Assembly (NCBI GenBank): GCA_913058405.1
Contig: CAJXRC010000010.1
Coordinates: 1-49,166, forward strand
Length of the DNA: 49,166 nucleotides
Direction of reading: 5' to 3'
From: an uncultured Colwellia sp.
GTDB taxonomy: Bacteria > Pseudomonadota > Gammaproteobacteria > Enterobacterales > Alteromonadaceae
Shown here piece after piece: positions 4,957 through 22,847 of the stretch. The position numbers and the translations under genes were made by a program. Below the pieces are notes generated by a model. That model worked only from the letters and a program-made list of their open reading frames with translations. It did not search any database and was not told where the DNA came from. How positions within the stretch are numbered: position 1 is the stretch's first letter; each line of letters opens with the position of its first letter.

Positions 4957-4973
4957 GGGGTCTGTTGATCTTT
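4957..4973 (+). repeat. GGGGTCTGTTGATCTTT repeat end, copy 1
   Basis: One of three near-identical motifs in the window in the same orientation (others at 12197 and 22657). At copy 3 the motif is the outer edge of a repeat related to 4247-4345, so it probably marks a terminal end of an insertion-sequence family. Here it sits between transposase remnant 2 and the MITE-like element. Confidence 0.6.
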
Positions 4974-7426: not shown

Positions 7427-8485
7427 TTACTCGTTAAGTTTCTTAAGGGTTGCAGAAGGTAGTTCTTTAAAAAGTTGACGGTATTCACGTGCAAATCGAC
7501 CTAACTCGATAAACCCCCAATTAAGTGCTACGTCAACAACTTTGTTTTTATCACTCCGATTTATTAACAAGTCACGCCTGACCCCATTTAAGCGCAACAA
7601 CCTTAAATAACGTATAGGTGTTACCCCTAAGTACTCTTTAAAGCCATATTGTAGATTTCGTTCACTTAGTTTGGCAATTTTACAAAGCTCAGGAATTGTT
7701 GGAACACTTTCTCCATAACTGTGCAAATAGTCCATGACTTGACGCACGCCTTCACAACGCTTCGATTGGTTTACTCGCTTTTCAGTACAAGGAGTTGTTA
7801 CTTTAAGCGCGTTAAATGCCAGTCTTAAAATTGTATCATTTATCATGCGTAATGAATTTTCGGTTTTTATAACTTCAGGTTTCGCTTGTATGACATTAAT
7901 AATATTATTTACTCCCCTCGCAAATTGAGCTAATGCAAGAGGCTCTGTCAGGCAGGCTTTACTAATTAGCCAGTAATTTGGGATTTCTTCGCCTGTGAGC
8001 AGGTGAATATCATGGGCAAATGTCTCTCTATCAAAAACGGCGGAGATCACGCTTAAATGGTTTTTAAAAGTGACATCCCAATCCCCGCCCGTCGCTTGAA
8101 TAATAGAGTTTTGTTCAATATGTTTACCACAAAAATTTGAATCATCTCTATTCGAAAGTAATGCCGCGAAAGGCACAAAGTTACTCGCGGGCGTCGCTTC
8201 TATTAATGCGCCTACATTAAGGTTCTCCCGGAAAACTTGTAACTTGCCTAAATTTATCTCCAGATAGTCTCCTTGTAATTGCCCTGAATATAACTGGGTG
8301 TAACGGCGGTTCTTATTCTCTTGAAATAGGGCGAGCTCATCAATATCAGAGGTCGATACTCCCCTTATTTTATGATGATTGTGATTTTTACCTTGAAGGT
8401 TCATTAGTGATGCAAAGTCCTTTTCTCGATACCATCCCGTTGATATAACAAAGCAACTATAACAATATCCTTTCGGAAATTGCAT
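7427..8485 (-). CDS. AraC-family transcriptional regulator
   Basis: DNA-binding regulator. The C-terminal ~105 residues form the AraC/XylS double helix-turn-helix: VPTIPELCKIAKLSERNLQYGF is helix-turn-helix 1 and KVVDVALNWGFIELGRFAREY is helix-turn-helix 2. The N-terminal ~240 residues are a divergent effector domain. The start is uncertain: the first ATG (8485) has no visible ribosome site, whereas the internal ATG at 8404 (MNLQGKNHNH) is preceded by AAAGGA and would give a 325-residue protein of more usual length. It is transcribed divergently from the sulfatase at 8764 and upstream of the phosphatase, so control of one or both is a reasonable inference. Confidence 0.87.
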   Translation of the reverse strand: MQFPKGYCYSCFVISTGWYREKDFASLMNLQGKNHNHHKIRGVSTSDIDELALFQENKNRRYTQLYSGQLQGDYLEINLGKLQVFRENLNVGALIEATPASNFVPFAALLSNRDDSNFCGKHIEQNSIIQATGGDWDVTFKNHLSVISAVFDRETFAHDIHLLTGEEIPNYWLISKACLTEPLALAQFARGVNNIINVIQAKPEVIKTENSLRMINDTILRLAFNALKVTTPCTEKRVNQSKRCEGVRQVMDYLHSYGESVPTIPELCKIAKLSERNLQYGFKEYLGVTPIRYLRLLRLNGVRRDLLINRSDKNKVVDVALNWGFIELGRFAREYRQLFKELPSATLKKLNE

Positions 8486-8763: not shown

Positions 8764-10332
8764 ATGGAAATGAATACCAGGCTTAAGAAAATCGCATTAG
8801 GAATAGGTTTACTTGCTATTGCCACCAGCGCAGCAGCAACAACTAATAAGGCAAAACCTAATGTATTAGCTATCTGGGGTGATGATATTGGCTATTACAA
8901 TATCAGTGCTTATAACCAAGGTATGATGGGCTATCAAACACCTAACATCGACCGTATTGCTGATGAAGGTGCTTTATTTACTCATCACTATGCCCAACAA
9001 AGTTGTACTGCTGGTCGCGCTTCATTCATTTTAGGTCAAGAACCTTTTAGAACCGGCTTATTAACCATAGGTATGCCTGGTTCAACACATGGTATTCCGG
9101 ATTGGACACCAACCATTGCGGACTTGTTAAAAGAACAAGGTTATATGACAGCGCAATTTGGTAAAAATCATTTGGGTGATCAAGACAAACATTTACCGAC
9201 TAATCATGGTTTTGATGAGTTTTTTGGTAATCTTTATCATTTAAATGCTGAAGAAGAGCCTGAAACCTACTATTACCCTAAAGATAAAGCCTTCCATAAA
9301 AAATATGGCCCACGTGGTGTTATCCATTCATTTGCCGATGGTAAAATTGAAAACACGGGTTCAATGACACGTAAACGTATGGAAACTGCGGATGAAGAAT
9401 TCATAGCAGGTACTCTGAAATTTATTGATAAAGCGCACAAAGCGAAAAAGCCATTCTTTATCTGGCATAGTTCAACCCGTATGCACGTATGGACTCGTTT
9501 ACAAGAAAAATACCGTGGTAAATCAGGTGTAGGATTAACTGCCGATGGTATGCTTGAGCATGATGATCATGTTGGTATATTGCTTGATAAATTAGATGAT
9601 TTAAAAATAGCAGATAACACCATTGTTATTTATTCAACAGATAACGGCGCAGAGAAGTTTACTTGGCCTGATGGTGGTACATCACCATTTGCCGGAGAAA
9701 AAGGGACTACTCGTGAAGGTGGTATGCGTGTACCTCAGCTAGTTCGCTGGCCTGGTACCATTAAAGCAGGCAGTAAATTCAATAACATGATGTCTCATGA
9801 AGATTGGATGCCAACCCTCTTAGCCGCAGCAGGTGAGCCAAACATAGTTAGCAAGCTAAAAAAAGGTTACAAAGCTAACGGTAAAAAATGGAAAATTCAC
9901 CCTGATGGCCATAACTTCAAACCTTTCTTTGAAGGTAAAGAAAAAAATTCACCTAGACTAAGTAAATTATACTTCAGTGCTGCTGGTGATTTAAACGCTG
10001 TTCGCTGGAATGAATGGAAAATTTCTTTTGCTGTTGAAGAAGGCGCTATCAATACGGCTTATCGTAGAACACCTGCATGGCCAGTAATTACCAATTTACA
10101 TGCTGACCCATTTGAAACAGCTTCAACAGAATCTGCGATGTATGTGCGTTGGTATGCCGACAATATGTGGTTATTTGTTCCTATTCAGCAACAAGTATCT
10201 GCATTTATGTCAACTATTGACGGTTACCCTTTCCAAGCTGGTTCTAGTTTAAGTGCTAGCGATATTGGTTATAAGAGTATCAGAACGCAAAAAGCTTTAA
10301 AGCAACTGCAACAACTAAGTCCTAACCGATAA
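8764..10332 (+). CDS. Arylsulfatase-type sulfatase 1 (S1 family)
   Basis: Secreted type I sulfatase. A Sec signal peptide (KKIALGIGLLAIATSAAA) is followed by WGDDIG (38-43; metal Asp pair), the formylglycine motif CTAGR (81-85, matching CxAxR with Cys81 to be converted), GKNHLGD (133-139) and TDNGAE (292-297) for metal and sulfate binding, and GEKGTTREGG near 311-320 with the active-site Lys. All catalytic positions look intact. The substrate cannot be read from sequence; a sulfated marine polysaccharide or small ester is the usual target. It is a tandem paralogue of the next gene, separated from it by a terminator, and is divergent from an AraC regulator. Confidence 0.92.
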   Translation: MEMNTRLKKIALGIGLLAIATSAAATTNKAKPNVLAIWGDDIGYYNISAYNQGMMGYQTPNIDRIADEGALFTHHYAQQSCTAGRASFILGQEPFRTGLLTIGMPGSTHGIPDWTPTIADLLKEQGYMTAQFGKNHLGDQDKHLPTNHGFDEFFGNLYHLNAEEEPETYYYPKDKAFHKKYGPRGVIHSFADGKIENTGSMTRKRMETADEEFIAGTLKFIDKAHKAKKPFFIWHSSTRMHVWTRLQEKYRGKSGVGLTADGMLEHDDHVGILLDKLDDLKIADNTIVIYSTDNGAEKFTWPDGGTSPFAGEKGTTREGGMRVPQLVRWPGTIKAGSKFNNMMSHEDWMPTLLAAAGEPNIVSKLKKGYKANGKKWKIHPDGHNFKPFFEGKEKNSPRLSKLYFSAAGDLNAVRWNEWKISFAVEEGAINTAYRRTPAWPVITNLHADPFETASTESAMYVRWYADNMWLFVPIQQQVSAFMSTIDGYPFQAGSSLSASDIGYKSIRTQKALKQLQQLSPNR

Positions 10333-10354
10333 GTTTTTGCATTAAAAATATCTT

Positions 10355-10402
10355 AAAAGGGTAATAAAGTTCATTCTCATTGAACTTTTTATTACCCTTT
10401 TT
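10355..10402 (+). terminator. Rho-independent terminator after sulfatase 1
   Basis: Long hairpin: AAAAGGGTAATAAAGTTCA (10355-10373) pairs with TGAACTTTTTATTACCCTTTT (from 10381) across a 7-base loop, ending in a T-run. It should separate transcription of the two sulfatase genes. Confidence 0.9.
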
Positions 10403-10447
10403 CGTATTTCAATAATGCTAGATTTATCAAGTAAATAATGTAATATC

Positions 10448-10466
10448 GTTAATGATAATAATTATC
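10448..10466 (+). promoter_or_regulatory. Putative Fur box upstream of sulfatase 2
   Basis: GTTAATGATAATAATTATC agrees with the 19-base Fur consensus GATAATGATAATCATTATC at 17 positions. It ends 57 bases before the ATG of sulfatase 2, a normal place for a promoter operator. This suggests iron-dependent repression of the sulfatase, and possibly of the downstream genes. AT-rich context raises the chance level, so binding is inference. Confidence 0.55.
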
Positions 10467-10523
10467 ATATTGTTAAGTTTATGCATCAAACAATATACTC
10501 ATCCATAGTGATAAGGAAAACCC

Positions 10524-12032
10524 ATGGTAACTAAAAACAAGTTGAAAAAGCTGGTTTTAGGTTTAAGTTTAATTGCTGCATCCAGTGCAGCAATAGCAAC
10601 AACCGACACCGCAAAACCTAATATTCTGGCAATCTGGGGCGATGATATCGGTCCATTTAACATCAGCGCTTATAACCGCGGCATTATGGGTTATAAAACC
10701 CCTAATATTGATCGGATTGCTAATGAAGGGATTATCTTCACTGATTCATACGGCGACCAAAGTTGTACCGCAGGTCGCGCTGGCTTCATTACTGGTCAAC
10801 ATCCAATTCGAACTGGCTTGACTAAAGTTGGGCTACCGGGTGCTAAAGAAGGATTAAATAAAAAAGATCCTACCATTGCTGAGTTATTGAAACCTCTTGG
10901 TTATATGACTGGCCAATTTGGTAAAAACCACTTGGGTGATCAAGATGAACATTTACCGACTAACCATGGTTTTGATGAGTTTTTTGGTAACCTTTACCAC
11001 TTGAATGCTGAGGACGAGCCAGAGCATCCTGATTATCCTAAAGATCCTGCCTTTAAAAAACGTTTCGGACCTCGTGGTGCTATCCATTCATTTGCCGACG
11101 GTAAAATCACTGATACCGGTCCTGTCACTAAAAAGCGTATGGAAACTGTAGATGAAGAGTTTTTAGGGGCGGCTCTAAAATTTATTGATAAAGCTCATGC
11201 GGCTAAAAAACCTTTCTTTGTTTGGTTTAACTCAACTCGCATGCATGTATGGACACGGTTAAAACCTGAGTCTGAGGGTGTAACTGGCCAAGGTTTGTAT
11301 GCTGACGGTATGGTTGAACATGATGGCCATGTAGGTCAATTGCTCGACAAAATTGATAAACTGGGCATTGCTGATAACACTATAATTATGTATACCACTG
11401 ATAATGGTGCAGAATTAGCACTTTGGCCTGATGGTGGTTACACACCATTTAGAGGCGAGAAAAACACTAACTGGGAAGGCGGTTACCGTGTTCCTATGAT
11501 GGTGAAGTGGCCAGGTAAAATTAAGCCTAACCAAGTATCTAATGAAATGATTTCACTAATTGATTGGATGCCGACTATTTTAGCTGCTGCTGGCGATAGT
11601 AAAATCAAAAGTAAGCTTAAAAAAGGTACCAACATTGGTAGTACTAAATTTAAAGTGCACCTTGATGGTTATAACTTTTTACCGCACTTCTTAGATACGT
11701 CTAAACCAGGTCCACGTAAAGAGTTTATTTACTCTTCTGATACTGGTGACATTGTTGCAATTCGCGATGGTGATTACAAAATGGTATTTAAAGAACAACG
11801 TGCACACGGTCTAAAAGTATGGCAAGACCCTTGGGTTTCTCTTCGAGCTCCTAAAATATTTAACTTAAGAATGGACCCATATGAACGTATGGACCACGAT
11901 TCAGCTGCTTATGGCACTTGGTGGGCTGAGCATATGTTCTTAATGGCGCCTTCAATGGTGAAGGTAGGTCAATTTAAGGCAACCTTTAAGGAATTTCCTC
12001 AGCGTCAAAAACCAGGAAGTTTCGTACCTTAA
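10524..12032 (+). CDS. Arylsulfatase-type sulfatase 2 (S1 family)
   Basis: Secreted paralogue of sulfatase 1, collinear over its whole length and with the same motif positions: signal peptide to about residue 26, WGDDIG (38-43), CTAGR (81-85), GKNHLGDQDEHLPTNHGF from 133, TDNGAE near 292 and GEKNTNWEGG in place of GEKGTTREGG. The segments around the active site are almost identical between the two, while the C-terminal parts diverge, which suggests related but distinct substrates. A ribosome site (AAGGAAA) precedes the ATG. The Fur-box match lies upstream and a stem-loop downstream, so it is probably its own transcription unit. Confidence 0.92.
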   Translation: MVTKNKLKKLVLGLSLIAASSAAIATTDTAKPNILAIWGDDIGPFNISAYNRGIMGYKTPNIDRIANEGIIFTDSYGDQSCTAGRAGFITGQHPIRTGLTKVGLPGAKEGLNKKDPTIAELLKPLGYMTGQFGKNHLGDQDEHLPTNHGFDEFFGNLYHLNAEDEPEHPDYPKDPAFKKRFGPRGAIHSFADGKITDTGPVTKKRMETVDEEFLGAALKFIDKAHAAKKPFFVWFNSTRMHVWTRLKPESEGVTGQGLYADGMVEHDGHVGQLLDKIDKLGIADNTIIMYTTDNGAELALWPDGGYTPFRGEKNTNWEGGYRVPMMVKWPGKIKPNQVSNEMISLIDWMPTILAAAGDSKIKSKLKKGTNIGSTKFKVHLDGYNFLPHFLDTSKPGPRKEFIYSSDTGDIVAIRDGDYKMVFKEQRAHGLKVWQDPWVSLRAPKIFNLRMDPYERMDHDSAAYGTWWAEHMFLMAPSMVKVGQFKATFKEFPQRQKPGSFVP

Positions 12033-12069
12033 GCTAAGTACTTACTGAGTATTGCTTTAGTAAATAATA

Positions 12070-12098
12070 TGATCGCTATCTGCTTTTGATAGCGATCA
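12070..12098 (+). terminator. Stem-loop after sulfatase 2
   Basis: TGATCGCTATC and GATAGCGATCA form an 11-bp perfect stem with a 7-base loop, 38 bases after the sulfatase stop. The following bases (CTCTTACTTTTC) are only moderately T-rich, so this is a likely but not ideal terminator. Confidence 0.65.
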
Positions 12099-12196
12099 CT
12101 CTTACTTTTCAATCACTAACCATTACAATTAGTTTTATTACCTTATCACTGTTAATTAATAATCATAAGCTAATAGAATTTATCTACAGTTTACTA

Positions 12197-12480
12197 GGGT
12201 CTGTTGATCTTTCATTTTAGTCTCTGCTATAGGCTAATTTTTAAGTTAACAAGGCGAAAAGAGTGCTATGTAGTTACTCTACTTTAATGATTTTCAACGC
12301 TGTTAGGTTGAAAATTAGCCATAGCCCTTTGGGTTGCCTTGATAAAGCGTCACTCTTTGTTGCTTCATTCGCATTTGGGACAACCAATATATTGAATGAA
12401 GCGCCTGGATTGTCACCTTTTTCAAGTGCAACAGAGTTACAAACTGTAAAGGTCAGAAAGCCCTAAATAATTTTCTTTTA
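12197..12480 (+). repeat. Repeat-derived segment starting GGGTCTGTTGATCTTT
   Basis: Begins with the second copy of the CTGTTGATCTTT motif. The rest contains an open frame (12263-12466) with no start-site support; read on the opposite strand the segment gives ASFNILVVPNANEATKSD and KGLWLIFNLTALKIIK fragments, which look like an insertion-sequence flank, not a host gene. Bases 12481-12522 lead into the next gene. This accounts for the gap 12033-12522 after the stem-loop. Confidence 0.5.
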
Positions 12481-12522
12481 ATAAGTATTTCATAAACAAT
12501 TACAATAAGAATCCACACTGTT

Positions 12523-13410
12523 ATGTATAAAACCTTTCGACTTTATCCCTCTTCATTGCAAACAATAGTAAATCTGACACTTGCCGTAAGCTTTTTATCT
12601 ATCAGTCTTAACAGTTTTGCAAAAACAGAAGATGCATTAGTACAATCTTCAACAACTCAAGTAGAAAGCACAACAAAAATAAATGAACGGATATTTAGCT
12701 TACCAAAAGCAATGCATGATGAATTAATGAAGAATATGATTCTCGTTGAAGCTGGTAGCTTTACTATGGGATCTGACTCTTCATTAGCAAGAAAAAGAGA
12801 GCAACCAGCCCATCAAGTTAGTCTTGATAGTTTTTATATTAGCCGATATGAATTAACACAAGATATTTTTGAACAAATAATGGGTTGGAATAATAGCTAC
12901 TTTGCCTGTGATAAATGCGCAGTAAACAATATCAGTTGGTTTAACATGCAGCTTTTTATCGAACGATTGAACAAGGCAACGGGAAAAGAGTTTAGTCTTC
13001 CTACTGAAGCACAATGGGCCTTCGCAGCCAAAGGGGGCAATAAATCGAAAGGTTATCAATACAGTGGTTCGAATGATATTGGTGATATTGCTTGGTTTGC
13101 CGACAATGCCAATAATAAAAGCCACCCTGTAGGGCTTAAAAAACCAAATGAACTAGGCTTATACGATATGACAGGTAACTTGTGGGAATTTTGCCTCGAC
13201 GATATGAGCCGAAAGGCCTATAGCAGAACACAGAGCCACAATCCTTTTCAAGGAGATAAAAAAAATCTAGAACGAAAAGCAATGAAAGTTATTCGTGGTG
13301 GTGGCTATGAATTTTCTGCCACTGAAAATCTAGTATTTATGCGAGATGGCGCAACTAATAATGTCCGTATGGCTGATATTGGCTTCAGATTAGCATTGAG
13401 TAAGAAATAA
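12523..13410 (+). CDS. FGE/SUMF1-domain protein lacking catalytic cysteines
   Basis: Exported protein with a C-terminal formylglycine-generating-enzyme fold: MILVEAGSFTMGSD (72-85), ISRYELTQDIFE, CDKCAVNNISWFN (129-141), FSLPTEAQWAFAAKGG (157-172), LGLYDMTGNLWEF (211-223), KVIRGGGYEF (255-264), IGFRLAL. An N-terminal hydrophobic stretch (about 16-33) acts as signal or anchor. True aerobic FGEs carry two copper-binding cysteines just after RGG (RGGSxxCxxxxC); here those positions are Phe264 and Asn269, so oxidase activity is unlikely. It may be a structural or binding member of the superfamily. Its stop codon abuts the next gene's start, so it is co-expressed with the cytochrome. Confidence 0.85.
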   Translation: MYKTFRLYPSSLQTIVNLTLAVSFLSISLNSFAKTEDALVQSSTTQVESTTKINERIFSLPKAMHDELMKNMILVEAGSFTMGSDSSLARKREQPAHQVSLDSFYISRYELTQDIFEQIMGWNNSYFACDKCAVNNISWFNMQLFIERLNKATGKEFSLPTEAQWAFAAKGGNKSKGYQYSGSNDIGDIAWFADNANNKSHPVGLKKPNELGLYDMTGNLWEFCLDDMSRKAYSRTQSHNPFQGDKKNLERKAMKVIRGGGYEFSATENLVFMRDGATNNVRMADIGFRLALSKK

Positions 13411-15777
13411 ATGTATTCACTTTTCCCCAAAAAAGACAAAATCTATAAAATGAAATTAGTTTCTAAATTCAGCACACTTTTATTATTACTAACCCTAAAT
13501 ATATCGACTAGTGCAGTTGTTATGGCTACTGATTTTGTTGGCTCAAAAACCTGTGTAAATTGTCACGAACAAGCTTATCAATATTGGCAAGGTTCACATC
13601 ATGACATGTCGATGAAACACGCAACAAAAGAAAGCGTATTAGGCGATTTCAATAACGCTACATTGGCTGTAGATGACAACAAATTAAACTCAGAAACAAA
13701 AGTACAAAGCACCTTCTTTAAAAAAGCCAATCAATATTGGGTCAATATCAAAGGCAGTGATGGTAAGTTTCATGACTATCAAATTAAATATACTTTTGGC
13801 TATACACCACTACAGCAATATATGGTTGAGTTTGATGATGGCAGAGTACAACTCATCCCTTTTGCCTGGGACTCTCGTGCTGAAAAAGAAGGCGGTCAAC
13901 GTTGGTTTAACCTCTACCCTGATATGACAACAAAACATCAAGAATTCTTTTGGACAAACACAGGACAAAATTGGAATTACATGTGTGCCGATTGTCATTC
14001 CACTAATGTTGATAAAAACTTTGATGTCTCCACCAATACTTACAACACAACGTTTAGTGAAATAAATGTCGCATGTGAAAGTTGTCACGGTGCGGCCAGT
14101 GATCATTTAACTTGGGCACAACAGCAAGACGGATTATCTAAAAACGATAAAAGTATAAAACCTAATGATGGCGATATTGGTTTTACACGTGACCTATCAA
14201 AATCAGTAAAGCAGTGGCAAGCAAACACAGATAAAAACAAAAAAACGTTACAGCCAAAAAGTATTGAACATAGTCAACAAGTCTTGGTTTGTGCACAATG
14301 CCATAGCAGGCGAACTCAAATAAGTGATAATGACTTTGTCAAAGGTAATGCCTTTGGCGAACGCTATTTACTTGATTTAGTTTCTAGTACTAACTATCAC
14401 CCTGACGGCCAAGTTTACAACGAAGATTTTGTATATGGCTCATTCTTACAATCGAAAATGTACAAAAAAGGTGTTGTTTGCAGCAATTGTCATAATCCTC
14501 ATACAGCTGAGTTAAAACTTCCCATTGAAACGCTTTGTTTGCAGTGTCATCAAGCTGATAACTATGCTTCAACAAAACATCATAAACATCCAGAAAACTC
14601 AAGCGGTGCGCAATGTGTTAACTGTCACATGCCTGAAACCACTTATATGGAAATAGATGCTAGACGTGATCATGGTTTTCATATTCCAACACCCAACTTA
14701 GCGAAAAAACTTGGAACGCCAGATACTTGTTTAACATGCCATGAAGATAAAAACAGTCAATGGAGTGCGAGTAAAGTTAACGATTGGTATCCTAACTCGC
14801 AGGTTAAAGATGAAAAAGATTTCGTACCTGTTTTTGCAGCCATCAACTTAGCATTAAATGAACAACAACTTCAGGGCGTTTCTGCCGAATTATCTCGCAT
14901 TTCTCAAACTATTTCTTATGCTGGTATTATTCGCGCATCCGCATTAACCAAAATGGCGAGTGTTTCAAATACTAATACCATTATTGCCATTGCCAGAGCA
15001 GCAAAAAGTGCTGATGAAAATATACGTTTAGGTGCAATTGAAGGTGCGCAGAGTATGCAAGCGGCTGAGAAATGGCGAGTATTATCCCCTTTATTGAATG
15101 ATAAAGTATTAGCTGTACGCATTAATGCTGCTTTTGCTTTAACCAGCTTATGGCAAAACCTATCGCAGTCACAACAAGCTCAATTAACACCTGCGCTTAA
15201 TGAGTATATTGAAAGTCAGCGTTTTAATGCAGATCGTAGTTTTGCGCATTCAAACATGGGGATTATTGCCGCTTACCAAGGAAATACAGAACAGGCAATA
15301 AAAGCGTTTAAGCAAGGTATATCAATTGAGCAAAGCTTCGCTCAAACTTACCTGAATTTAAGTCAAGTCTATTATCAGCGTGGTGAAAACCAACAAAGTA
15401 TTAGCACATTGCAACAAGGCAAAAAAGCGAACCCAGATAATGCAAGCCTCTCGTATAACCTTGGTCTTGCCTTCATACGGACAAAAGATAAAATCAATGC
15501 TGCTAAAGAATTAGCCATAGCTACGCAGCTGGCGCCTCAAAATAGTCATTATTTTTATGTCTATGGTTTAAGCCTTGAGCAAGTTAAGCCAAGTGCCGCT
15601 TATGAAGCACTTTATCAAGCTTTTCAACTCAGCAATAATCCGCAGCACCTATATGCTCTTTGTGAAATGAAAATTCGTCACAAAAACCCATTGGCACAAC
15701 AATGCTTAACTCAATTACAACCCATAGTACCACCAGCAGTGATGCAAAGGCTTACTCAACAACTAAGTAATAATTAA
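13411..15777 (+). CDS. Octahaem c-type cytochrome with C-terminal TPR repeats
   Basis: Periplasmic multihaem protein with eight CXXCH motifs at residues 48, 192, 222, 294, 357, 376, 402 and 440 (CVNCH, CADCH, CESCH, CAQCH, CSNCH, CLQCH, CVNCH, CLTCH). A helical HEAT-like stretch follows (about 470-620), then at least three TPR-type repeats (about 625-750; AHSNMGIIAAYQGNTEQA, YLNLSQVYYQRGENQQS, SYNLGLAFIRTKDKINA). The best signal peptide starts at Met14 (MKLVSKFSTLLLLLTLN), so the true start may be 13450. Haem number and TPRs suggest an electron-transfer or redox-enzyme subunit that docks partners. It starts directly at the stop codon of the FGE-like gene and precedes the MoxR operon by 92 bases. 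The substrate is not evident. Confidence 0.88.
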   Translation: MYSLFPKKDKIYKMKLVSKFSTLLLLLTLNISTSAVVMATDFVGSKTCVNCHEQAYQYWQGSHHDMSMKHATKESVLGDFNNATLAVDDNKLNSETKVQSTFFKKANQYWVNIKGSDGKFHDYQIKYTFGYTPLQQYMVEFDDGRVQLIPFAWDSRAEKEGGQRWFNLYPDMTTKHQEFFWTNTGQNWNYMCADCHSTNVDKNFDVSTNTYNTTFSEINVACESCHGAASDHLTWAQQQDGLSKNDKSIKPNDGDIGFTRDLSKSVKQWQANTDKNKKTLQPKSIEHSQQVLVCAQCHSRRTQISDNDFVKGNAFGERYLLDLVSSTNYHPDGQVYNEDFVYGSFLQSKMYKKGVVCSNCHNPHTAELKLPIETLCLQCHQADNYASTKHHKHPENSSGAQCVNCHMPETTYMEIDARRDHGFHIPTPNLAKKLGTPDTCLTCHEDKNSQWSASKVNDWYPNSQVKDEKDFVPVFAAINLALNEQQLQGVSAELSRISQTISYAGIIRASALTKMASVSNTNTIIAIARAAKSADENIRLGAIEGAQSMQAAEKWRVLSPLLNDKVLAVRINAAFALTSLWQNLSQSQQAQLTPALNEYIESQRFNADRSFAHSNMGIIAAYQGNTEQAIKAFKQGISIEQSFAQTYLNLSQVYYQRGENQQSISTLQQGKKANPDNASLSYNLGLAFIRTKDKINAAKELAIATQLAPQNSHYFYVYGLSLEQVKPSAAYEALYQAFQLSNNPQHLYALCEMKIRHKNPLAQQCLTQLQPIVPPAVMQRLTQQLSNN

Positions 15778-15794
15778 TCGCTAAGCACTAACTA

Positions 15795-15839
15795 GTCGAT
15801 AACTAAGTAGTCGATAACTAAGTAGTCGATAATTAAGTA
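15795..15839 (+). repeat. Tandem repeat, 3 x 15 bp before moxR
   Basis: Three head-to-tail copies of GTCGATAACTAAGTA, the third with one change, in the short spacer between the cytochrome gene and the MoxR gene. They could be slippage products or spaced binding sites. Confidence 0.9.
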
Positions 15840-15869
15840 ATAATTTAACGGATAGAAAGGGATAGTCTA

Positions 15870-16856
15870 ATGACAGAAAACACGCAAGTACCATCGAACG
15901 CTTTAGCACAGTTGTCATTGCTAAAAGCACAAATTGAACAATCAGTTATTGGTCAATCACATGTTGTTGACTCATTACTTATCGCTTTATTAACTAATGG
16001 TAATATCTTACTTGAAGGTCTGCCCGGTACCGCTAAAACGCGTTCAATCAAAACATTAGCGCGTTCTCTCGCCGTAGATCTTGGACGCGTTCAATTTACG
16101 CCTGATTTATTACCTTCAGATGTAACGGGTACCGAGGTTTATCAAGAAGTTAACGGTAAACCTGTCTTAACTTTTCAACAAGGTCCTATTTTTAATAATT
16201 TGCTTCTTGCAGATGAAATCAATCGTTCTCCAGCAAAAGTACAAGCGGCATTGTTAGAGGCTATGGAAGAAAGACAAATCACCGTAGCAGGTAAAACATA
16301 TAAGCTGCCTGAGTTATTTATGGTATTGGCGACACAAAACCCCATCGAGCAAGAAGGCACCTACCCTTTGCCTGAAGCACAGATGGATAGGTTTATCATG
16401 AAAATCAATCTTGATTATCCCGATGATGCCGCAGAAGCAGAAATAATTAAGTTAGTACGCAGCGAGGAAAAACACGTACAGGAAGTAGAACACATTAATC
16501 CTGAGCATATATTCACTGCACGTGACGAAATTCATAACATTCATTGTAGCCAAGCTATCATTGATTATATTGTTGCTATTGTCATGGCGACAAGAAAGCC
16601 CGAACGCTATCAAGATTCTACTTTAGAAGAATGGCTGACCGTTGGTTCAAGCCCAAGAGCCAGTATCGCAATTGATAAATGTGCTCGTGCTCAAGCGTGG
16701 TTAAAAGGTAAAGACTTCGTTGACCCTGAAGATGTTCGCTCAGTTGTTCACTCTGTATTACGCCACCGACTAGTATTAAGTTATGACGCATTAGCTGACG
16801 GCATTACAGCAGATGATGTCATTGATGAAATACTTAAACAGGTGGCAGTTGCCTAA
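15870..16856 (+). CDS. MoxR-family AAA+ ATPase
   Basis: Cytoplasmic AAA+ ATPase of the MoxR group, which act with von Willebrand A proteins to mature or activate protein complexes, often redox enzymes. Walker A is GLPGTAKT (50-57), Walker B LLLADE (111-116) followed by INRSPAKVQAALLEAMEE, sensor 1 near LATQNPIEQEGTYPLPEAQ, and the C-terminal lid contains SPRASIAIDKCARAQA. Length (328 residues) is typical. The ribosome site AAAGGGA precedes the ATG. First gene of a seven-gene run (MoxR, DUF58, DUF4381, two vWA, TPR, BatD) of the standard bacterial order. Confidence 0.94.
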   Translation: MTENTQVPSNALAQLSLLKAQIEQSVIGQSHVVDSLLIALLTNGNILLEGLPGTAKTRSIKTLARSLAVDLGRVQFTPDLLPSDVTGTEVYQEVNGKPVLTFQQGPIFNNLLLADEINRSPAKVQAALLEAMEERQITVAGKTYKLPELFMVLATQNPIEQEGTYPLPEAQMDRFIMKINLDYPDDAAEAEIIKLVRSEEKHVQEVEHINPEHIFTARDEIHNIHCSQAIIDYIVAIVMATRKPERYQDSTLEEWLTVGSSPRASIAIDKCARAQAWLKGKDFVDPEDVRSVVHSVLRHRLVLSYDALADGITADDVIDEILKQVAVA

Positions 16857-16865
16857 GGCGTTCCT

Positions 16866-17897
16866 ATGAGCACCAGCAGTCTTCTTAATAAAACTAACGC
16901 TAATGCTAGAAAAAAGCATACCGGTGATTCTAAAGATACCACTAAAGATACGTCAGCGATTTATGCTGATTTAAATGAGTTGCGCCGACTTAAGTATTTA
17001 GCGAAAGGTTTTTCATTTACCCCCAATCAGCCAGCAAATAGCGCTTTAAGTGGTAAAAATGTCTCTAAACTTCGAGGGCGCGGACTTAATTTTGAAGAGT
17101 TACGTCACTATAGACCTGGCGATGATATTCGTTCTATGGATTGGAAAGTGACACAAAGAACTGGCAAGCCGCATATTAAAGTGTTTACTGAAGAGCGCGA
17201 ACGGAATGTCTTTTTAGCAATCGATCAACGTATGACGATGTTCTTTGGCAGTTCAAATAAAATGAAATCAGTGATTGCCGCAGAGCTCGCTGCGCTTATC
17301 GCTTGGCAAATAAGTGATAGTGGCGATCGCATTGGTGCTGTTATTTATAACGATCAGCAAACAAAAGTCATTCCTGCCAAACGTGGCAAACAACATGTGG
17401 TAAACCTACTATCAGAGGTATTAAAGAAAAACCACGAATTATCACTTGAAAATAGTGCTCAACTACAAAATGATGATAGTGATTCTTATAACAAGATGTT
17501 AGCAACGTTGAATAAAGTCTCCAGTCATAATGGTTTGATTATCTTGATCGGTGACGGTCATGGTTTTAACGACAAAAGTACCGATTTCATTAAACAATTG
17601 CGACAGCATAATGAAGTCATTGCTTGCCATATCTTTGACCCGTTAGAATTAAAATTACCAAAGATGTCACAAATGATTGTCAGTGACGGTGTACAACAAA
17701 TTCAATTTTCTTCTGAAAAGAAAAATTTCCAAAAAAACTATGAAGCTGAAATTGCCCGACAGTTAGAGAGCTATGTCAAAGCAGCGAAAAAATATCGTAT
17801 TCCATTAATTGAGATAGACACCATATCGCCGGTTGAACAACAATTACGTAAAGCCCTTGGTCACAGCACAGGTAGTAAAGGTGGAACTAAAATATGA
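16866..17897 (+). CDS. DUF58 protein of the MoxR operon
   Basis: DUF58-family protein with a von-Willebrand-like fold, the usual partner of MoxR ATPases. The hallmark is FEELRHYRPGDDIRSMDWKV (about residues 76-95), followed by a Rossmann-like core (NVFLAIDQRMTMFFG; GLIILIGDGHGF). There are no membrane segments. It lies nine bases after the MoxR stop, and its stop overlaps the next start by four bases (ATGA), indicating translational coupling. Probably links the ATPase to the membrane vWA subunits; this role is inferred from the family. Confidence 0.9.
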   Translation: MSTSSLLNKTNANARKKHTGDSKDTTKDTSAIYADLNELRRLKYLAKGFSFTPNQPANSALSGKNVSKLRGRGLNFEELRHYRPGDDIRSMDWKVTQRTGKPHIKVFTEERERNVFLAIDQRMTMFFGSSNKMKSVIAAELAALIAWQISDSGDRIGAVIYNDQQTKVIPAKRGKQHVVNLLSEVLKKNHELSLENSAQLQNDDSDSYNKMLATLNKVSSHNGLIILIGDGHGFNDKSTDFIKQLRQHNEVIACHIFDPLELKLPKMSQMIVSDGVQQIQFSSEKKNFQKNYEAEIARQLESYVKAAKKYRIPLIEIDTISPVEQQLRKALGHSTGSKGGTKI

Positions 17898-18511
17898 GTT
17901 TTGAAAAACCATGGGGTAACTACCTCCTTGAAGCAATTGTAGAAACTACCGCTCCGCAAAATATTAGTTTTTGGCCTCAAACGATCGCTTGGCAGTTAAT
18001 ATTTATTTTACTTACCATAATTATTATCAAAAAAATCTATCAAACATGGCAAGATTATCAAGCGAATGCTTATCGTCGTGAAGCCCTTGCTTGGCTGGCA
18101 CAGTGTTCATTAAGTAGTGAAGACGATATTAGACAATTACCCGCGTTATTAAGAAAAACTGCACTGCTCGCCCATGAAGTTAATCAACATGATACACGCA
18201 AGCCGTTAGGCTCATCCTCTGTAAGTAAACGTCGCCAAGAAATCACAGGATTATCAGGCCAATCTTGGGCTGTTTGGTTAGATATGCATTGTAAGCACAG
18301 CGAATTTAGCAAAGAAATACGGCCAGCTTCAGGTGCTTCTCTTTCAAATGAAGCATTATTAACACAACTCGCCTACATCCCTAACCTGGATTTGACTGAT
18401 AGCGAATTCAATAATTCCTTAAATAACCTATGCCAGCAAATCAAATTATGGATTCAACATCATCAGTTACTTGACGACAATATTCCACATGATTTAGGGG
18501 AAAAAACATGA
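17894..18511 (+). CDS. DUF4381 membrane protein
   Basis: Small membrane protein with one clear transmembrane helix (about 32-50, WQLIFILLTIIIIKKIY) and a cytoplasmic helical domain containing YRREALAWLAQ and LPALLRKTALLAHEV, the pattern of DUF4381 proteins found in MoxR/vWA operons. Function unknown; likely a membrane-anchored adaptor. Overlaps both neighbours by ATGA. Confidence 0.85.
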   Translation: MSFEKPWGNYLLEAIVETTAPQNISFWPQTIAWQLIFILLTIIIIKKIYQTWQDYQANAYRREALAWLAQCSLSSEDDIRQLPALLRKTALLAHEVNQHDTRKPLGSSSVSKRRQEITGLSGQSWAVWLDMHCKHSEFSKEIRPASGASLSNEALLTQLAYIPNLDLTDSEFNNSLNNLCQQIKLWIQHHQLLDDNIPHDLGEKT

Positions 18512-19590
18512 TTGAATTTGTTTACCCTTGGGCATTTGTGTTATTGCTCGCGCCAGTTTTAGTAACCCTCTTTGCACCTGCGTATAAAGAACGTAAGTCC
18601 TCGATAAAAGTGCCCTACTTTGCTCGTTTGGTTGATGTAACGGGTGAAACACCGCAAAGTGGTGCTGTATTACTTAACCGTAATAATATACAGCGCATTA
18701 TTGTTGCTTTTTCATGGCTTTGCATTGTAACGGCTATCGCTAAACCCGAAATGATAGGTGCTCCCATAAACCAAGAAAAATCAGCAAGAGATTTAATGGT
18801 GGCGGTAGATTTATCTGGTTCTATGTCAGTAGAAGACTTCACTTTACCTAAGACGAAAAACACCACTAAAATAGCGGATAAAGTCAATCGGCTGGTGGCA
18901 GTTAAAGATGTGCTTAATACCTTTGTCAAAAGTCGAGAGCATGACAGGTTAGGTCTAATTCTGTTTGGTGATGCTCCTTACCTGCAAGCGCCATTTACTG
19001 ATGATATTCCAACGTGGCAAGCATTGCTCAATGAAAGTGAAATTGGAATGGCGGGACAAAGCACAGCCTTTGGCGATGCTATAGGCTTAGCTATTAGTGT
19101 CTTTGAGCAATCTGATACCCAAAACCGTGTACTCATTGTTTTAACTGATGGCAATGACACCGCCTCTAAAGTGCCGCCTGTTGAAGCTGCTAAAGTCGCA
19201 GCAGCCCATGATATCAAGATATACACCATAGCGATTGGTGATCCAAGCGCGGTAGGCGAAGAAAAAGTAGATCTTGAAGTCTTGAAAGAGATGGCTGACA
19301 TTACCCAAGGCAAAAGCTTTCAAGCCTTAAACAGTGATGAACTTTTACAAGTCTATGCAGAGATAGATGAATTAGAGCCTCAACAGTTTGACTCGCTGTC
19401 CTTCAGACCCAGGGTAAGTGTGCATCACTATCCTATTATACTATTTGTTAGTATTTATCTAATTGCCTTATTTATCGTGAATATTCGCATTCGCTTGCTG
19501 CTAAACAAACAAAAGCGCGCATTAGTGAATAGTGAGAAAAACGAACAGCATAGTAAAGTAAATGCCGACAATGAGGTGATCCATGATTGA
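18508..19590 (+). CDS. vWA membrane protein (BatA-like)
   Basis: Membrane-anchored von Willebrand factor A protein. Two hydrophobic helices (about 5-24 and 61-79) flank a short linker; the vWA domain follows with a canonical MIDAS motif DLSGS (101-105), a Thr-containing second site (QSTAFGDAIG) and LTDGNDT; a C-terminal helix (about 305-330) re-enters the membrane. Bat-type proteins bind partners through the metal site in the periplasm and work with MoxR ATPases. The coding region overlaps the next one by eight bases. Confidence 0.9.
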   Translation: MIEFVYPWAFVLLLAPVLVTLFAPAYKERKSSIKVPYFARLVDVTGETPQSGAVLLNRNNIQRIIVAFSWLCIVTAIAKPEMIGAPINQEKSARDLMVAVDLSGSMSVEDFTLPKTKNTTKIADKVNRLVAVKDVLNTFVKSREHDRLGLILFGDAPYLQAPFTDDIPTWQALLNESEIGMAGQSTAFGDAIGLAISVFEQSDTQNRVLIVLTDGNDTASKVPPVEAAKVAAAHDIKIYTIAIGDPSAVGEEKVDLEVLKEMADITQGKSFQALNSDELLQVYAEIDELEPQQFDSLSFRPRVSVHHYPIILFVSIYLIALFIVNIRIRLLLNKQKRALVNSEKNEQHSKVNADNEVIHD

Positions 19591-20581
19591 TCAACTAGGC
19601 TTCTTTTTCGATAGTATGCAACACTTCCACTTTTTACGGCCATATTGGCTGCTAGCGTTTGTCATTATTTACTACATCATTCGCGCCTTCTCATTAAGGG
19701 ACGATAGCCTTGCTCAATGGCGAAGCTTAATGTCCAAGCAAGTACTAACGCATTTAACGGTGAGCGGGAATAATAATCATTGGCTATCTCCTCAAAAAAT
19801 GTCGTTAATTTTGGCGCTTCCTTTGTGTATCGTATTGATGGGACCCACATGGCATCAACAACCATCACCTTTTAGTGAAAATAATGCGCCATTGGTTATC
19901 GCCCTTGATGTATCAAAAACTATGGAACAAGGTGACGTTCAACCTTCAAGGTTATTACGTGCTAAGCAAAAAGTCATCGAATTACTTGAACTCAGAGGCG
20001 ATAGTAAAACAGCATTAATCGCGTTTTCCGGAAGTGCCCATGTGGTTATGCCGATAACGAATGACAGAGAAATGATCCGCCACTTTCTTGATGCTCTCAG
20101 TGAAAAGATCATGCCGGTATCTGGCAAGTTACCCGAAACTATACTGCCCTTAGCCGATAATTTACTCGCTAGTTCAGCAGTTCCTGGCACTGTTTTATTA
20201 ATTGGTGATGGTGCGACTAACAACACAGTAACCGCCTTTAAAGAGTTTTTTGCCACACAATCTGCGCAACTTATCGTTTGGGGTATTGGTCAAAGCACAA
20301 CTGCTGAGCAAAGTATTATTGCTCAGGATGAGCTCGTTACGGATGTTATTCCAATGCAGCTTGAGCAATTAAAAGCACTTAGCAGCGAAAGTGATGGTCG
20401 CCTGGTCTTAATGAGTAATGATAATAGTGATGTAAAGCGCGTTAATAATTACATTAAACACAACCTTGTTATTGTTGATGATAACTCAAGGCCATGGCAC
20501 GACTCAGGTTATCCGCTGGTTTTTGTTGTCGCTTTCATCTTCTTATTTTGGTTTAGAAAAGGGTGGACATTACAATGGTAA
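19583..20581 (+). CDS. vWA membrane protein (BatB-like)
   Basis: Second vWA protein, with hydrophobic helices at about 21-35 and 74-87, a vWA domain and a C-terminal helix (LVFVVAFIFLFWF). The MIDAS reads DVSKT (109-113), i.e. Thr where DxSxS usually has the second Ser; Thr is conservative, so metal binding may be kept. A second block is LLIGDGATNN. It is followed with overlap by the TPR gene. It probably pairs with the preceding vWA protein in one complex. Confidence 0.88.
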   Translation: MIDQLGFFFDSMQHFHFLRPYWLLAFVIIYYIIRAFSLRDDSLAQWRSLMSKQVLTHLTVSGNNNHWLSPQKMSLILALPLCIVLMGPTWHQQPSPFSENNAPLVIALDVSKTMEQGDVQPSRLLRAKQKVIELLELRGDSKTALIAFSGSAHVVMPITNDREMIRHFLDALSEKIMPVSGKLPETILPLADNLLASSAVPGTVLLIGDGATNNTVTAFKEFFATQSAQLIVWGIGQSTTAEQSIIAQDELVTDVIPMQLEQLKALSSESDGRLVLMSNDNSDVKRVNNYIKHNLVIVDDNSRPWHDSGYPLVFVVAFIFLFWFRKGWTLQW

Positions 20582-21315
20582 CTGTCATTTCAAATCGCTG
20601 GTTCACTTTGTTAAACGCCACTAAACGTAATAAGCGCAGCATCATTGTTATGCTAATTATGATAAGTGCTCTTTTCGCTTATCTTAGACCGCAACAATTT
20701 GCTGATTTATGGCTGACCCGTGATCAACAAGGACAGTTATTATTTACACTTGGTCATTATCAACACGCTAGTAACACCTTTAAAAGTACTCAGTGGCAAG
20801 CCTATAGTAGTTATGGTGCTGAACAATATAAAAATGCTGCAACCTTGTATGGACAATTTAATACCATAAACAGCCAAATAGCGAAAGCGAATGCCCTCGC
20901 TCATGGACGTGAATACATTAAAGCCCGGAACTTATATCAGCAGATCTTAACGTTAGCACCACAAAATACAGCGGCATTGACCAATATAGTCATCGTTCAA
21001 GCCATTATCGATGAAGTTAATCGTTTGTCTGCTAGTCAAGCACCAGAAGATGGTGAGGCAATAAAGGAATTAGGCGATGAGCCACAAACGGGTGATGGAG
21101 CCGAACGTGAAGTAGCGCCTAAAGAACAAGAAATTGAACAATTAAGTGCTGAGCAACTACTGCTCGATCCAAGTTTAAATGCTATGTGGTTGCGTCAAGT
21201 TCAAAAAAATCCAGCACACTTTTTATCACAAAAGTTTTATATGCAACAAGAGATAAAAAACCAGCAACCGCTTAAAGAAAACAATAATGAAAGCCAAGGA
21301 GTCGATGATGAATAA
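20575..21315 (+). CDS. TPR membrane protein (BatC-like)
   Basis: Protein with one N-terminal membrane helix (SIIVMLIMISALFAYL) and TPR-type repeats (about 55-150: GQLLFTLGHYQHASNTF, AEQYKNAATLYGQF, YIKARNLYQQILTLAPQ), then an acidic low-complexity linker. BatC proteins are thought to scaffold the vWA subunits. The ATG at 20575 overlaps the previous stop and has GGGTGG upstream; a GTG at 20563 is an alternative. Confidence 0.82.
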   Translation: MVTVISNRWFTLLNATKRNKRSIIVMLIMISALFAYLRPQQFADLWLTRDQQGQLLFTLGHYQHASNTFKSTQWQAYSSYGAEQYKNAATLYGQFNTINSQIAKANALAHGREYIKARNLYQQILTLAPQNTAALTNIVIVQAIIDEVNRLSASQAPEDGEAIKELGDEPQTGDGAEREVAPKEQEIEQLSAEQLLLDPSLNAMWLRQVQKNPAHFLSQKFYMQQEIKNQQPLKENNNESQGVDDE

Positions 21316-22657
21316 AGCACTTATCAGCCTGTTTATCTGCTTTTATCTGTTCAGCAGTACAAGCTTTGCGATGCAAACTATCGATAACTTGGTTAACCAA
21401 GAGAAATTAACCATTTCGCTAACAGTCAACGAAAGTGAACAACAAATAGTGGGGCAAGCGCTGGTCGTCTCTATTGAAGTTGCAACAGATCGTTGGTTTG
21501 CAACAGGAACCCGTGTACAAAGCTTTACCTTGACTGATGTAGTTATGCAAGCAAGCAACATAGTGACTATCAATGGCAGTAAGCGTATCAAAGGACAATC
21601 CTGGGCGACACAAACCCATGAAATTACTTTGTACCCTACTCTTACTGGCTCTTATCGATTGCCTGAAATTAAAGTTGATGTCTCAGTGAATACTGAGAAT
21701 GATGGCATCATCACAGGCGTGCTAAACACACAAGAAGCAGGCTTTAACATAAGCTTACCAGAAGCACTTATCGACATTGATAATTTTATCGTTTCACCTG
21801 AAGTGACTCTAAACATTGATGGCCAGTTTGACGCCGATAAAAAATACAGCATTGGCGAAGCAATCACGCAAACCATCACTATCACGGCAAGTGATACCCC
21901 GGCAATGATGATCCCTGAAATCAACTTAACCAATATCAGTGAGGTAAGTAAATCAGGCAAAGCAAATACAGAAACCGCAGAGGGTATTAGTATTTACCAT
22001 AAACCGGCGAAAGTTTTTGATAAGTCTAATCGTGGTTCCTTGTCAGGCAGTCGAGTTGAGTCATTTACCTATATATTTGAAAAATCAGGTAACTACATAT
22101 TAGCTGAGCAAGTTATTTACTGGTGGAACAGTCAGTCAAATACACTCGAAACATTACTTATTCCCGCTTCATCTTGGAGCGTTTCTGGCCAAGGATTCAT
22201 AAAACAACAATCAAACTTCGAGCTAAAAAATTTAAATTTTAATATCGCAACGCTACTAATTATCGCCTTAACTTTTTTAGTCTTAACCTTAGCTTATTTA
22301 ATTTATATAAAACGTCAGCAGTTAGTGACTTTTTATAAAAAACTAACCAAACACGAACAACGACAACTTCGTCAGCAGTTTTTAAATCACATAGCTAAAA
22401 AAGAATATCTCATAGCGACTCAAACTCTTTACCAATATTCACTCGCTTTAGGTAAAAGTACTGAAATTAAAAATAACAAATTAACCGAACGATTAAATAA
22501 ACTGGCTTTTCAAGGCGGTACTGATATAGATAGCTCACTAACCTTCTCTATTGACGATGCTAAGGCACTTATTAGACAAATAGCTAGCAAGACAGCTAAA
22601 AATGCCAAAGAGTCTAATTTTACGCATGGTGAGGCGATTAAACTCAATAAACAATAG
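21308..22657 (+). CDS. BatD-like periplasmic/membrane protein
   Basis: BatD ('oxygen tolerance') family protein: signal peptide from MNKALISLFICFYLF, repeated beta-rich domains in the periplasm (VNESEQQIVGQALVVSIEV; YSIGEAITQTITITA; ESFTYIFEKSGNYILAEQVIYWW), one transmembrane helix (about 315-337) and a basic helical tail. AAGGAG at 21296-21301 favours the ATG at 21308 over 21287 or 21305. The stop codon TAG overlaps the first base of a repeat end at 22657, so the original C-terminus may have been longer. Confidence 0.86.
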   Translation: MNKALISLFICFYLFSSTSFAMQTIDNLVNQEKLTISLTVNESEQQIVGQALVVSIEVATDRWFATGTRVQSFTLTDVVMQASNIVTINGSKRIKGQSWATQTHEITLYPTLTGSYRLPEIKVDVSVNTENDGIITGVLNTQEAGFNISLPEALIDIDNFIVSPEVTLNIDGQFDADKKYSIGEAITQTITITASDTPAMMIPEINLTNISEVSKSGKANTETAEGISIYHKPAKVFDKSNRGSLSGSRVESFTYIFEKSGNYILAEQVIYWWNSQSNTLETLLIPASSWSVSGQGFIKQQSNFELKNLNFNIATLLIIALTFLVLTLAYLIYIKRQQLVTFYKKLTKHEQRQLRQQFLNHIAKKEYLIATQTLYQYSLALGKSTEIKNNKLTERLNKLAFQGGTDIDSSLTFSIDDAKALIRQIASKTAKNAKESNFTHGEAIKLNKQ

Positions 22658-22847
22658 GGGCTGTTGATCTTTCGAGATTACTTTTGCAGCAATTTGTTGT
22701 TTTTTTTTACAGCGCTATTGATTTTGATAAGGGCGCTGCATGGATGCAGCTTATTAGAGAATGCAGGAGCATATTCTCCTGAACAACCATTCTCTTCAAT
22801 CAGTGCCTTGCCTTTAAGCCTTTTAATTCTCGCTGAGTGGGAAATAA
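22657..22847 (-). repeat. Dispersed repeat, copy B, with GGGGCTGTTGATCTTT end
   Basis: Begins with copy 3 of the CTGTTGATCTTT motif and ends with the 67-base block (22781-22847) shared, inverted, with 4247-4313. It contains a small GC-rich inverted repeat around 22737-22752. An overlapping open frame on the minus strand (ends 22678) spans this repeat and the next one and is considered spurious. Likely the end of a former insertion sequence. Confidence 0.7.

Follow-up and report, generated by a model that had tools for sequence, protein, structure and literature searches.

A Colwellia locus linking arylsulfatases, an octahaem cytochrome, and a MoxR-Bat operon suggests a candidate route of sulfatase maturation

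RESULTS

Layout of the locus

Arylsulfatase genes lie next to an octahaem cytochrome gene and a MoxR-Bat operon in an uncultured Colwellia sp., and we investigated what this linkage may mean. The window, by which we mean the whole stretch of DNA analysed (49,166 nucleotides), is an entire contig (CAJXRC010000010.1, C10) of a 5-Mb genome (GCA_913058405.1) split into 422 contigs. The genes of the locus are listed below; the signal peptides of the sulfatases, the formylglycine-generating enzyme (FGE)-fold protein, and the cytochrome, as well as HEAT-like repeats, were read by eye, with no predictor. TPR stands for tetratricopeptide repeat and vWA for von Willebrand factor A.

8764..10332, + strand: sulfA, S1-type arylsulfatase, CTAGR active-site motif, N-terminal signal peptide by eye (PF00884, 163 bits)
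10524..12032, + strand: sulfB, S1-type arylsulfatase with CTAGR motif, signal peptide by eye (PF00884, 170 bits)
12523..13410, + strand: FGE-fold protein lacking the Cys pair of FGE, signal peptide by eye (PF03781, 129 bits)
13411..15777, + strand: octahaem cytochrome (residues ~36-450) with helical-repeat/TPR domain (450-788), candidate sulfatase maturase (eight CXXCH, Pfam)
15870..16856, + strand: MoxR AAA+ ATPase (PF07726, 205 bits)
16866..17897, + strand: DUF58 protein, MoxR partner (PF01882)
17894..18511, + strand: DUF4381 protein (PF14316)
18508..19590, + strand: BatA, vWA protein, DxSxS metal site (DLSGS, by eye) (PF13519; NF047508, 159 bits, below the cut-off of 380)
19583..20581, + strand: BatB, vWA protein, degenerate metal site (DVSKT, by eye) (PF13519)
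20563..21315, + strand: BatC-like TPR protein, GTG start (TPR_2 and TPR_14, both below cut-off)
21287..22657, + strand: BatD (PF13584, 25.9 bits; cut-off 24.1)

The open reading frames (ORFs), the Pfam matches, and the CXXCH count bear out the positions and identities that an earlier note had assigned to the sulfatase pair, the FGE-fold gene, the cytochrome, and the MoxR-Bat set. The sequence also contains the two junctions it described, a stop codon of the FGE-fold gene contiguous with the cytochrome start and a gap of 92 bases between the cytochrome and MoxR genes. Of the seven-gene MoxR-Bat operon that it called complete, MoxR, DUF58, DUF4381, the vWA proteins BatA and BatB, and BatD were all detected by Pfam; BatC is a putative assignment, its TPR score being 21.5 bits against a Pfam cut-off of 27. 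MoxR carries Walker A (GLPGTAKT) and Walker B (LLLADEIN) motifs, read off the translation. Both sulfatases combine a PF00884 match with the [CS]-x-[PA]-x-R motif in the form CTAGR.

All eight haem motifs of the cytochrome are plain CXXCH. Parts of its haem domain match 6i5b, 6qvm, and cytochrome c554 in sequence. A first structure model was poor (mean predicted local distance difference test score [pLDDT], 60.5) and a second reached 88.9; the 50 Foldseek matches shown for the cytochrome model were all of TPR type.

Conservation of the neighbourhood

Two genome samples were searched, one of 118 genomes from the family and one of 375 at the order level. Both were drawn evenly from members that share ancestry, so that P values are inflated by kinship. 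All counts are lower bounds, since at most 8 cytochrome, 13 sulfatase, 18 MoxR, and 17 PF00884 candidates were scored per family genome and at most 4, 2, and 5 per genome in the three order-level searches.

The cytochrome search of the family sample gave 40 strong loci, which were fetched. A tree of 40 octahaem rows, with L056 (split gene) and L060_11 (no haem) left out, falls into two groups of 13 rows (the window included) and 27 rows, with moderate support (95/77 and 86/65, both short of the starred level). In the window's group, 12 of the 13 rows adjoin a MoxR-DUF58-DUF4381-BatA-BatB-(BatC)-BatD set (L034 is the exception), 10 of the 13 loci have a close sulfatase, and 4 have an adjacent FGE-fold gene. 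MoxR is found in none of the 27 loci of the other group in the stretches fetched. Flanking genes of the family cytochrome loci vary among several genera. Adjacency of cytochrome and MoxR genes is therefore common in relatives, and the rarity that would have spoken against the earlier note was not observed.

Some MoxR match is present in 117 of the 118 family genomes. MoxR of at least 64% identity, the sulfatase family (at least 47%), and the MoxR-linked cytochrome group occur in the same 12 genomes, in one of which (G048) MoxR is cut by a contig end. Named cytochrome loci number at least 495; of the 80 best, some from genomes also in our samples, 58 have MoxR, and 53 of these 58 have a sulfatase. 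These MoxR-bearing loci come from Colwellia, Vibrio, Photobacterium, Aliivibrio, and others, and among the matches listed, the best named ones to the cytochrome are from Colwellia. No cytochrome match was found in phages at E 1e-20.

The sulfatase as partner of the MoxR-Bat operon

At the order level, we counted 48 MoxR genes of at least 60% identity. Within 15 kb, a sulfB-family sulfatase accompanies 39 of them and a cytochrome 29; 12 have the sulfatase only, 2 the cytochrome only, and 7 neither. Chance would place about 0.8 MoxR genes near such a sulfatase (4.5-Mb genomes), and chance neighbourhood was rejected. Service to the cytochrome alone was rejected as well on the 12 sulfatase-only and 2 cytochrome-only loci. 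Because MoxR-Bat accompanies the sulfatase without the cytochrome more often than the reverse, the sulfatase is the likelier client. We speak of the sulfB family because the label "CTAGR sulfatase" had to be dropped for the order sample as a whole: of its 46 sulfatase rows in fetched stretches, 30 read CTAGR, 14 read STAGR, and 2 have no readable motif.

The linkage is conserved over classes. Plasmids of Rhizobium rhizogenes and R. tumorigenes carry the order arylsulfatase-MoxR-DUF58-DUF4381-vWA-vWA-BatD, and arylsulfatase-MoxR-Bat recurs on an R. johnstonii plasmid whose gene table has gaps. Bat genes lie upstream of the sulfatase in Azospirillum, arylsulfatases flank MoxR-Bat on both sides in Sinorhizobium medicae, and Klebsiella aerogenes and Pantoea dispersa have an anaerobic sulfatase-maturating enzyme (anSME) gene between sulfatase and MoxR. 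The clusters of R. rhizogenes, R. tumorigenes, and Azospirillum include an FGE with the Cys pair. No cytochrome was seen in the enteric and rhizobial plasmid sulfatase-MoxR-Bat stretches read. The window genome itself has a second set, sulfatase-MoxR-Bat, on contig C239 (7.4 kb), with no cytochrome on that contig. In a MoxR tree, whose long branches leave the deeper joins unsure, the group of the window is a clade apart from that of Vibrionaceae, and each of the two has sulfatase-linked members.

Another contig of the window genome (C158, L278) has a third MoxR-Bat operon, next to two genes that encode 435 and 802 residues, an arrangement with parallels in relatives; the size and order of these two genes are those of fadI/fadJ. 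A haloacid dehalogenase (HAD)-family hydrolase gene recurs beside the cytochrome or at the end of the sulfatase-MoxR-Bat cluster (L258, L259, L262, L272, L273, L275, L294, and L297).

Sulfatases and known maturation enzymes

The CTAGR motif is present in 53 of 54 relatives at least 55% identical scored as sulfA and in 126 of 133 at 40% or more (a few loci counted twice); of the rest, 5 are cut or shifted N-terminally and 2 have STAGR. SulfB is at most 66% identical to plasmid-borne proteobacterial arylsulfatases. Cytoplasmic anSME can convert serine, whereas FGE converts cysteine only. Passages of PMC6189696 state that S1 sulfatases require formylglycine, made by FGE or anSME, call the sulfatase maturation machinery of E. 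coli elusive, and treat formylglycine on Cys-type sulfatases without FGE or anSME as an open question.

In the window genome, the best match to the anSME model (TIGR03942) scores 61 bits against a cut-off of 349. None of 20 genomes, the 12 family genomes included, has an anSME over the cut-off; 2 of 14 controls do. The FGE-fold protein of the window has the PF03781 fold and, aligned to PDB FGE, reads GGGYEFSATEN in the active-site region, with no Cys pair; in the aligned PDB FGE, that pair lies near GGS. An ordinary FGE was rejected, as this protein and relatives of it lack the pair. It is likewise absent from all three FGE-fold matches of the window genome and from the 22 inspected of 26 PF03781 matches across the 12 family genomes.

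The cytochrome (E ≤ 1e-50) occurs in 25 of 25 family genomes with at least six matches to PF00884, a model that also matches non-sulfatases, and in 9 of 93 others (Fisher, 2e-18, inflated by kinship). No anSME over the cut-off was found in any of these 25 genomes. FGE status was inspected in 16 of the 25 (in G101 for 2 of 8 matches and in G080 for 1 of 2), and at E 1e-20 two of these sulfatase-rich genomes, G009 and G040, gave no match to PF03781. FGE-fold proteins of 524 to 572 residues without the Cys pair occur in sulfatase-bearing genomes (L151-L154 and L171); the modules after their FGE-fold domain look like FN3 and carbohydrate-binding ones. OvoA, EgtB, and kinase are putative names for FGE-fold relatives.

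Sulfatase motif and neighbouring gene

Among 66 order-sample sulfatase genomes, 32 have both cytochrome and anSME, 15 the cytochrome only, 18 anSME only, and 1 neither (Fisher, 0.03). The idea that the cytochrome simply replaces anSME was rejected on the 32 genomes with both. Within 5 kb of 136 order-sample sulfatases, the cytochrome is found at 49, anSME at 37, and both at none (Fisher, 2e-9); within 20 kb, both are found at 33, since the two genes lie at different ends of the Vibrionaceae clusters.

Once 7 duplicates and 7 proteins without a readable motif had been dropped, motifs were available for 163 sulfatases. Each of the 17 Ser-type sulfatases has an anSME no more than 5 kb away, and 2 (L127 and L136) have the cytochrome as well; at the same distance, 106 Cys-type sulfatases have the cytochrome (1 also anSME) and 5 have anSME only. 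Motif against neighbour thus stands at 106:2 against 5:15 (Fisher, 1e-13, inflated by kinship), totals that are not rates because most loci were anchored on the cytochrome. Such a pattern would follow if cysteine were the sole residue on which the cytochrome acts. In L127 and L136, the second sulfatase (STAGR) lies beside an anSME of 439 and 459 residues, respectively, and the first, Cys-type, beside the cytochrome. The cytochrome accompanies sulfatases with the motifs CTAGR, CSPTR, CGPSR, and CTPGR, and in G151 an anSME occupies the place that the cytochrome has in the window.

A sulfatase-like gene is present in 7 of 8 plasmid cytochrome loci read, which were picked for variety from 146 plasmid records matched. 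They belong to Pseudoalteromonas carrageenovora, P. shioyasakiensis, Vibrio, Rhizobium binae, R. leguminosarum, Sinorhizobium meliloti (where the gene is an unannotated ORF), and Methylocystis; the stretch around the cytochrome on an Alteromonas 76-1 plasmid has no such gene.

A haem-less homologue beside anSME

A protein of 334 to 390 residues with a signal-peptide-like start, encoded near anSME, matches most of the C-terminal half of the cytochrome and has no haem motif. Its first six matches range from 3e-74 to 4e-58 and the weakest is 6e-47; the next whole TPR protein scores 4e-12. An anSME gene lies at most two genes away from this protein in 28 of 28 cases and from octahaem proteins in 5 of 136 (not all distinct), counts in which some loci (L316 and L317 among them) had been chosen around anSME, sulfatase, or cytochrome and others with the anSME position known. 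In the least biased subset, stretches downstream of MoxR, it lies beside anSME in 16 of 16. Many anSME loci, the Ser-type ones among them, are without it (L318-L329, L334-L337, and L237), and the five Cys-type sulfatases with anSME only (L238 and L330-L333) are at loci that have it. A "cytochrome paralogue beside anSME" was rejected as a candidate, as those matches of 28 to 34% without CXXCH are these haem-less TPR proteins. As judged from the sequences, the TPR unit at Cys-type sulfatases is paired with either a separate radical S-adenosylmethionine (radical-SAM) maturase or a fused octahaem domain. A 201-residue ORF that matches the TPR end of the cytochrome alone (L252_6) lies next to a full cytochrome gene and is perhaps a decayed duplicate of it.

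Flanking genes and DNA features

5338..7053, - strand: phosphodiesterase, alkaline phosphatase superfamily (PF01663)
7427..8485, - strand: AraC-type regulator, divergent from sulfA (PF12833)
12069..12099, no strand: terminator-like hairpin 3' of sulfB (hairpin scan, weak)

The phosphodiesterase gene is a frequent companion, present in 27 of the 58 named MoxR loci in the stretches read, and relatives of the AraC-type regulator adjoin the cluster in L071, L077, L079, and L086. The hairpin is weak because the scan found fewer terminator-like sites than shuffled sequence gave (7 against 12.2 expected); given its position after sulfB, the sulfatases may not share a transcript with the FGE-fold and cytochrome genes. 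A promoter scan of the window gave matches at the level of shuffles. A 67-base inverted repeat (91%; 4247-4313 and 22781-22847) brackets the phosphodiesterase-sulfatase-Bat block, and three copies of GGGTCTGTTGATCTTTC (at most 1 mismatch), at 4958, 12197, and 22657, bracket or interrupt it.

DISCUSSION

We put at about even the chance that the locus serves to produce and activate arylsulfatases of the AtsA type in the periplasm, with MoxR-Bat activating the sulfatase and the cytochrome oxidizing the CTAGR cysteine to formylglycine. MoxR, DUF58, DUF4381, BatA, BatB, BatC, and BatD would form an inner-membrane ATPase/vWA machine with the exported sulfatase as its client, which it would most likely remodel or load with the active-site Ca2+. 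The Mxa machine, our model for this step, probably does so for methanol dehydrogenase. An S1 sulfatase structure has active-site calcium, according to PMC6923384. The TPR half of the cytochrome would hold the sulfatase while the octahaem half withdraws the electrons that convert cysteine to formylglycine and passes them on to the respiratory chain, a route that would replace anSME or FGE or run alongside them. The signal peptides suggest that these steps would take place in the periplasm. It is mainly the exchange of domains at the TPR unit that leads us to see a redox maturase in the haem domain, and the cytochrome seems less an object of maturation than a second factor that acts on the sulfatase. 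In its wider form, which makes the octahaem-TPR cytochrome a third formylglycine generator, haem-based and periplasmic, for Cys-type sulfatases (CxAxR/CxPxR) and MoxR-Bat their activation machine, the proposal is tentative and somewhat more probably wrong than right; the match between Ser/Cys motif and neighbour adds a little to its probability. If true, it would account for the sulfatases of sampled marine bacteria in which neither FGE nor anSME is seen, and for the retention of anSME at Ser-type sulfatases.

Several observations weigh against a maturation role. Cytochrome and anSME are found together in 32 of the 66 sulfatase genomes, in Vibrionaceae often inside a single cluster of 20 kb, and one Rhizobium plasmid has the cytochrome along with a Cys-pair FGE; the cytochrome is therefore not a simple substitute. 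One genome, G460, has a sulfatase and, in our searches, neither cytochrome nor anSME. Within 5 kb, 35 Cys-type sulfatases have neither partner and 3 of the 163 have both, and the set was mostly anchored on the cytochrome. In the second cytochrome group, a sulfatase lies in the stretch at only 7 of the 27 loci, and the link to PF00884 weakens at laxer cut-offs (27/30 genomes with at least five matches, 28/34 with at least four, and 30/42 with at least three). No haem geometry supports catalysis, there being enough conserved extra His/Met to cap every haem, and the cytochrome looks exported (N terminus by eye), whereas anSME acts in the cytoplasm. As for MoxR-Bat, 7 of the 48 operons have neither sulfatase nor cytochrome within 15 kb, the window's own MoxR subclade contains operons without either in the stretch, and in Ruegeria, Salipiger, Skermanella, and Aureibacter the stretch around a close sulfatase has no annotated MoxR.

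Alternatively, the locus could serve the catabolism of a sulfated substrate, with the cytochrome a redox enzyme or electron carrier of the pathway that has no maturation role and MoxR-Bat a recruited general envelope chaperone. This would suit cytochrome genes that lie beside TonB receptors and glycosidases and coexist with anSME and FGE, and if sulfatase-rich genomes are those of polysaccharide degraders, the 25 of 25 correlation would be obtained as well. We nevertheless consider it unlikely: the cytochrome goes with sulfatases whose motifs differ, and a catabolic cluster predicts neither the match of Ser/Cys motif with neighbour nor the haem-less homologue beside anSME.

The earlier note proposed that MoxR-Bat is a dedicated system that matures or docks the cytochrome, the sulfatases being neighbours that belong to one pathway with it. 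Our results fit a dedicated maturation system; the cytochrome as its client is improbable. In the window's lineage, cytochrome and MoxR genes are immediate neighbours, within 1 kb of MoxR the cytochrome is found at 23 of the 48 genes and the sulfatase at 14, and seven loci have cytochrome and MoxR without a sulfatase in stretches that are in part short (L036, L038, L090, L123, L124, L125, and L132). Over 15 kb, however, sulfatase-only loci number 12 and cytochrome-only loci 2, enterics and rhizobia have sulfatase-MoxR-Bat without the cytochrome in the stretch read, and all 27 cytochrome loci of the other group are without MoxR in the stretch fetched. Least probable, and very doubtful in our view, is that the FGE-fold protein is a periplasmic maturase lacking the FGE Cys pair and the cytochrome its electron acceptor: the stop-to-start linkage, the FGE-fold gene beside Vibrionaceae clusters, and a second NCBIfam relative, PvdO (an FGE-fold oxidase), far below cut-off at 65 of 500 bits, speak for this, but no such protein is among the PF03781 matches of three genomes with sulfatase and cytochrome (G012, G038, and G078), and in Vibrionaceae it adjoins anSME.

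MoxR-Bat machines are widespread, and few of their clients are known. A sulfatase client that recurs in alpha- and gammaproteobacteria would make one of them testable, and the cytochrome would be a concrete candidate for formylglycine formation on Cys-type sulfatases without FGE or anSME; formylglycine chemistry serves protein labelling. The earlier note knew of no described system of this composition. In the accessible portions of the open-access literature searched, we likewise found neither the sulfatase-MoxR-Bat nor the cytochrome-sulfatase linkage, and papers naming both arylsulfatase and MoxR draw no link between them there; subscription papers lay mostly outside the search, and the linkages may be in print. 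The portions seen of PMC3895804, PMC8926400, PMC6923384, PMC6189696, PMC6315715, PMC12482762, PMC10409515, and PMC5066984 do not describe the linkage. The parts of the locus are already known.

Comparison with known systems

Benjdia in 2007 reportedly described, as the title has it, a third sulfatase maturation system of E. coli; it would resemble the proposed route in that Cys-type sulfatases gain formylglycine though no enzyme is known for the step. The octahaem oxidoreductases HAO, OTR, and MccA share eight haem-binding motifs with the window cytochrome, and some have a variant catalytic haem motif; the window cytochrome differs in its fused TPR domain and in having no such variant among its eight CXXCH motifs. 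The Bacteroides aerotolerance (Bat) operon and RavA-ViaA combine MoxR with vWA proteins, and the window shares BatA, BatB, and BatD domains with them; a sulfatase link of these systems was not found in the accessible open-access literature. The mxaRSACKLD genes encode a MoxR ATPase, DUF58, and vWA proteins that mature the periplasmic Ca2+ enzyme methanol dehydrogenase, a likeness in gene types; their client is a pyrroloquinoline quinone (PQQ) dehydrogenase, unlike the sulfatase of the window. Closer to the window is the Rhizobium/Azospirillum cluster, with its CTAGR sulfatase, MoxR, DUF58, DUF4381, two vWA proteins, and BatD; unlike the window, it has a Cys-pair FGE and an HAD hydrolase and no cytochrome in the stretch. 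Klebsiella atsA-atsB is an arylsulfatase operon in which AtsB is the anSME, and its AtsA-type sulfatase family is that of the window. On plasmid 4 of K. aerogenes NCTC10006 (where anSME is annotated in two pieces) and in Pantoea dispersa, this pair is followed by MoxR, DUF58 or vWA, and BatD. The sulfatases there read STAGR, whereas those of the window read CTAGR, and the window, with no anSME over the cut-off, adds the octahaem cytochrome and the Cys-less FGE-fold gene.

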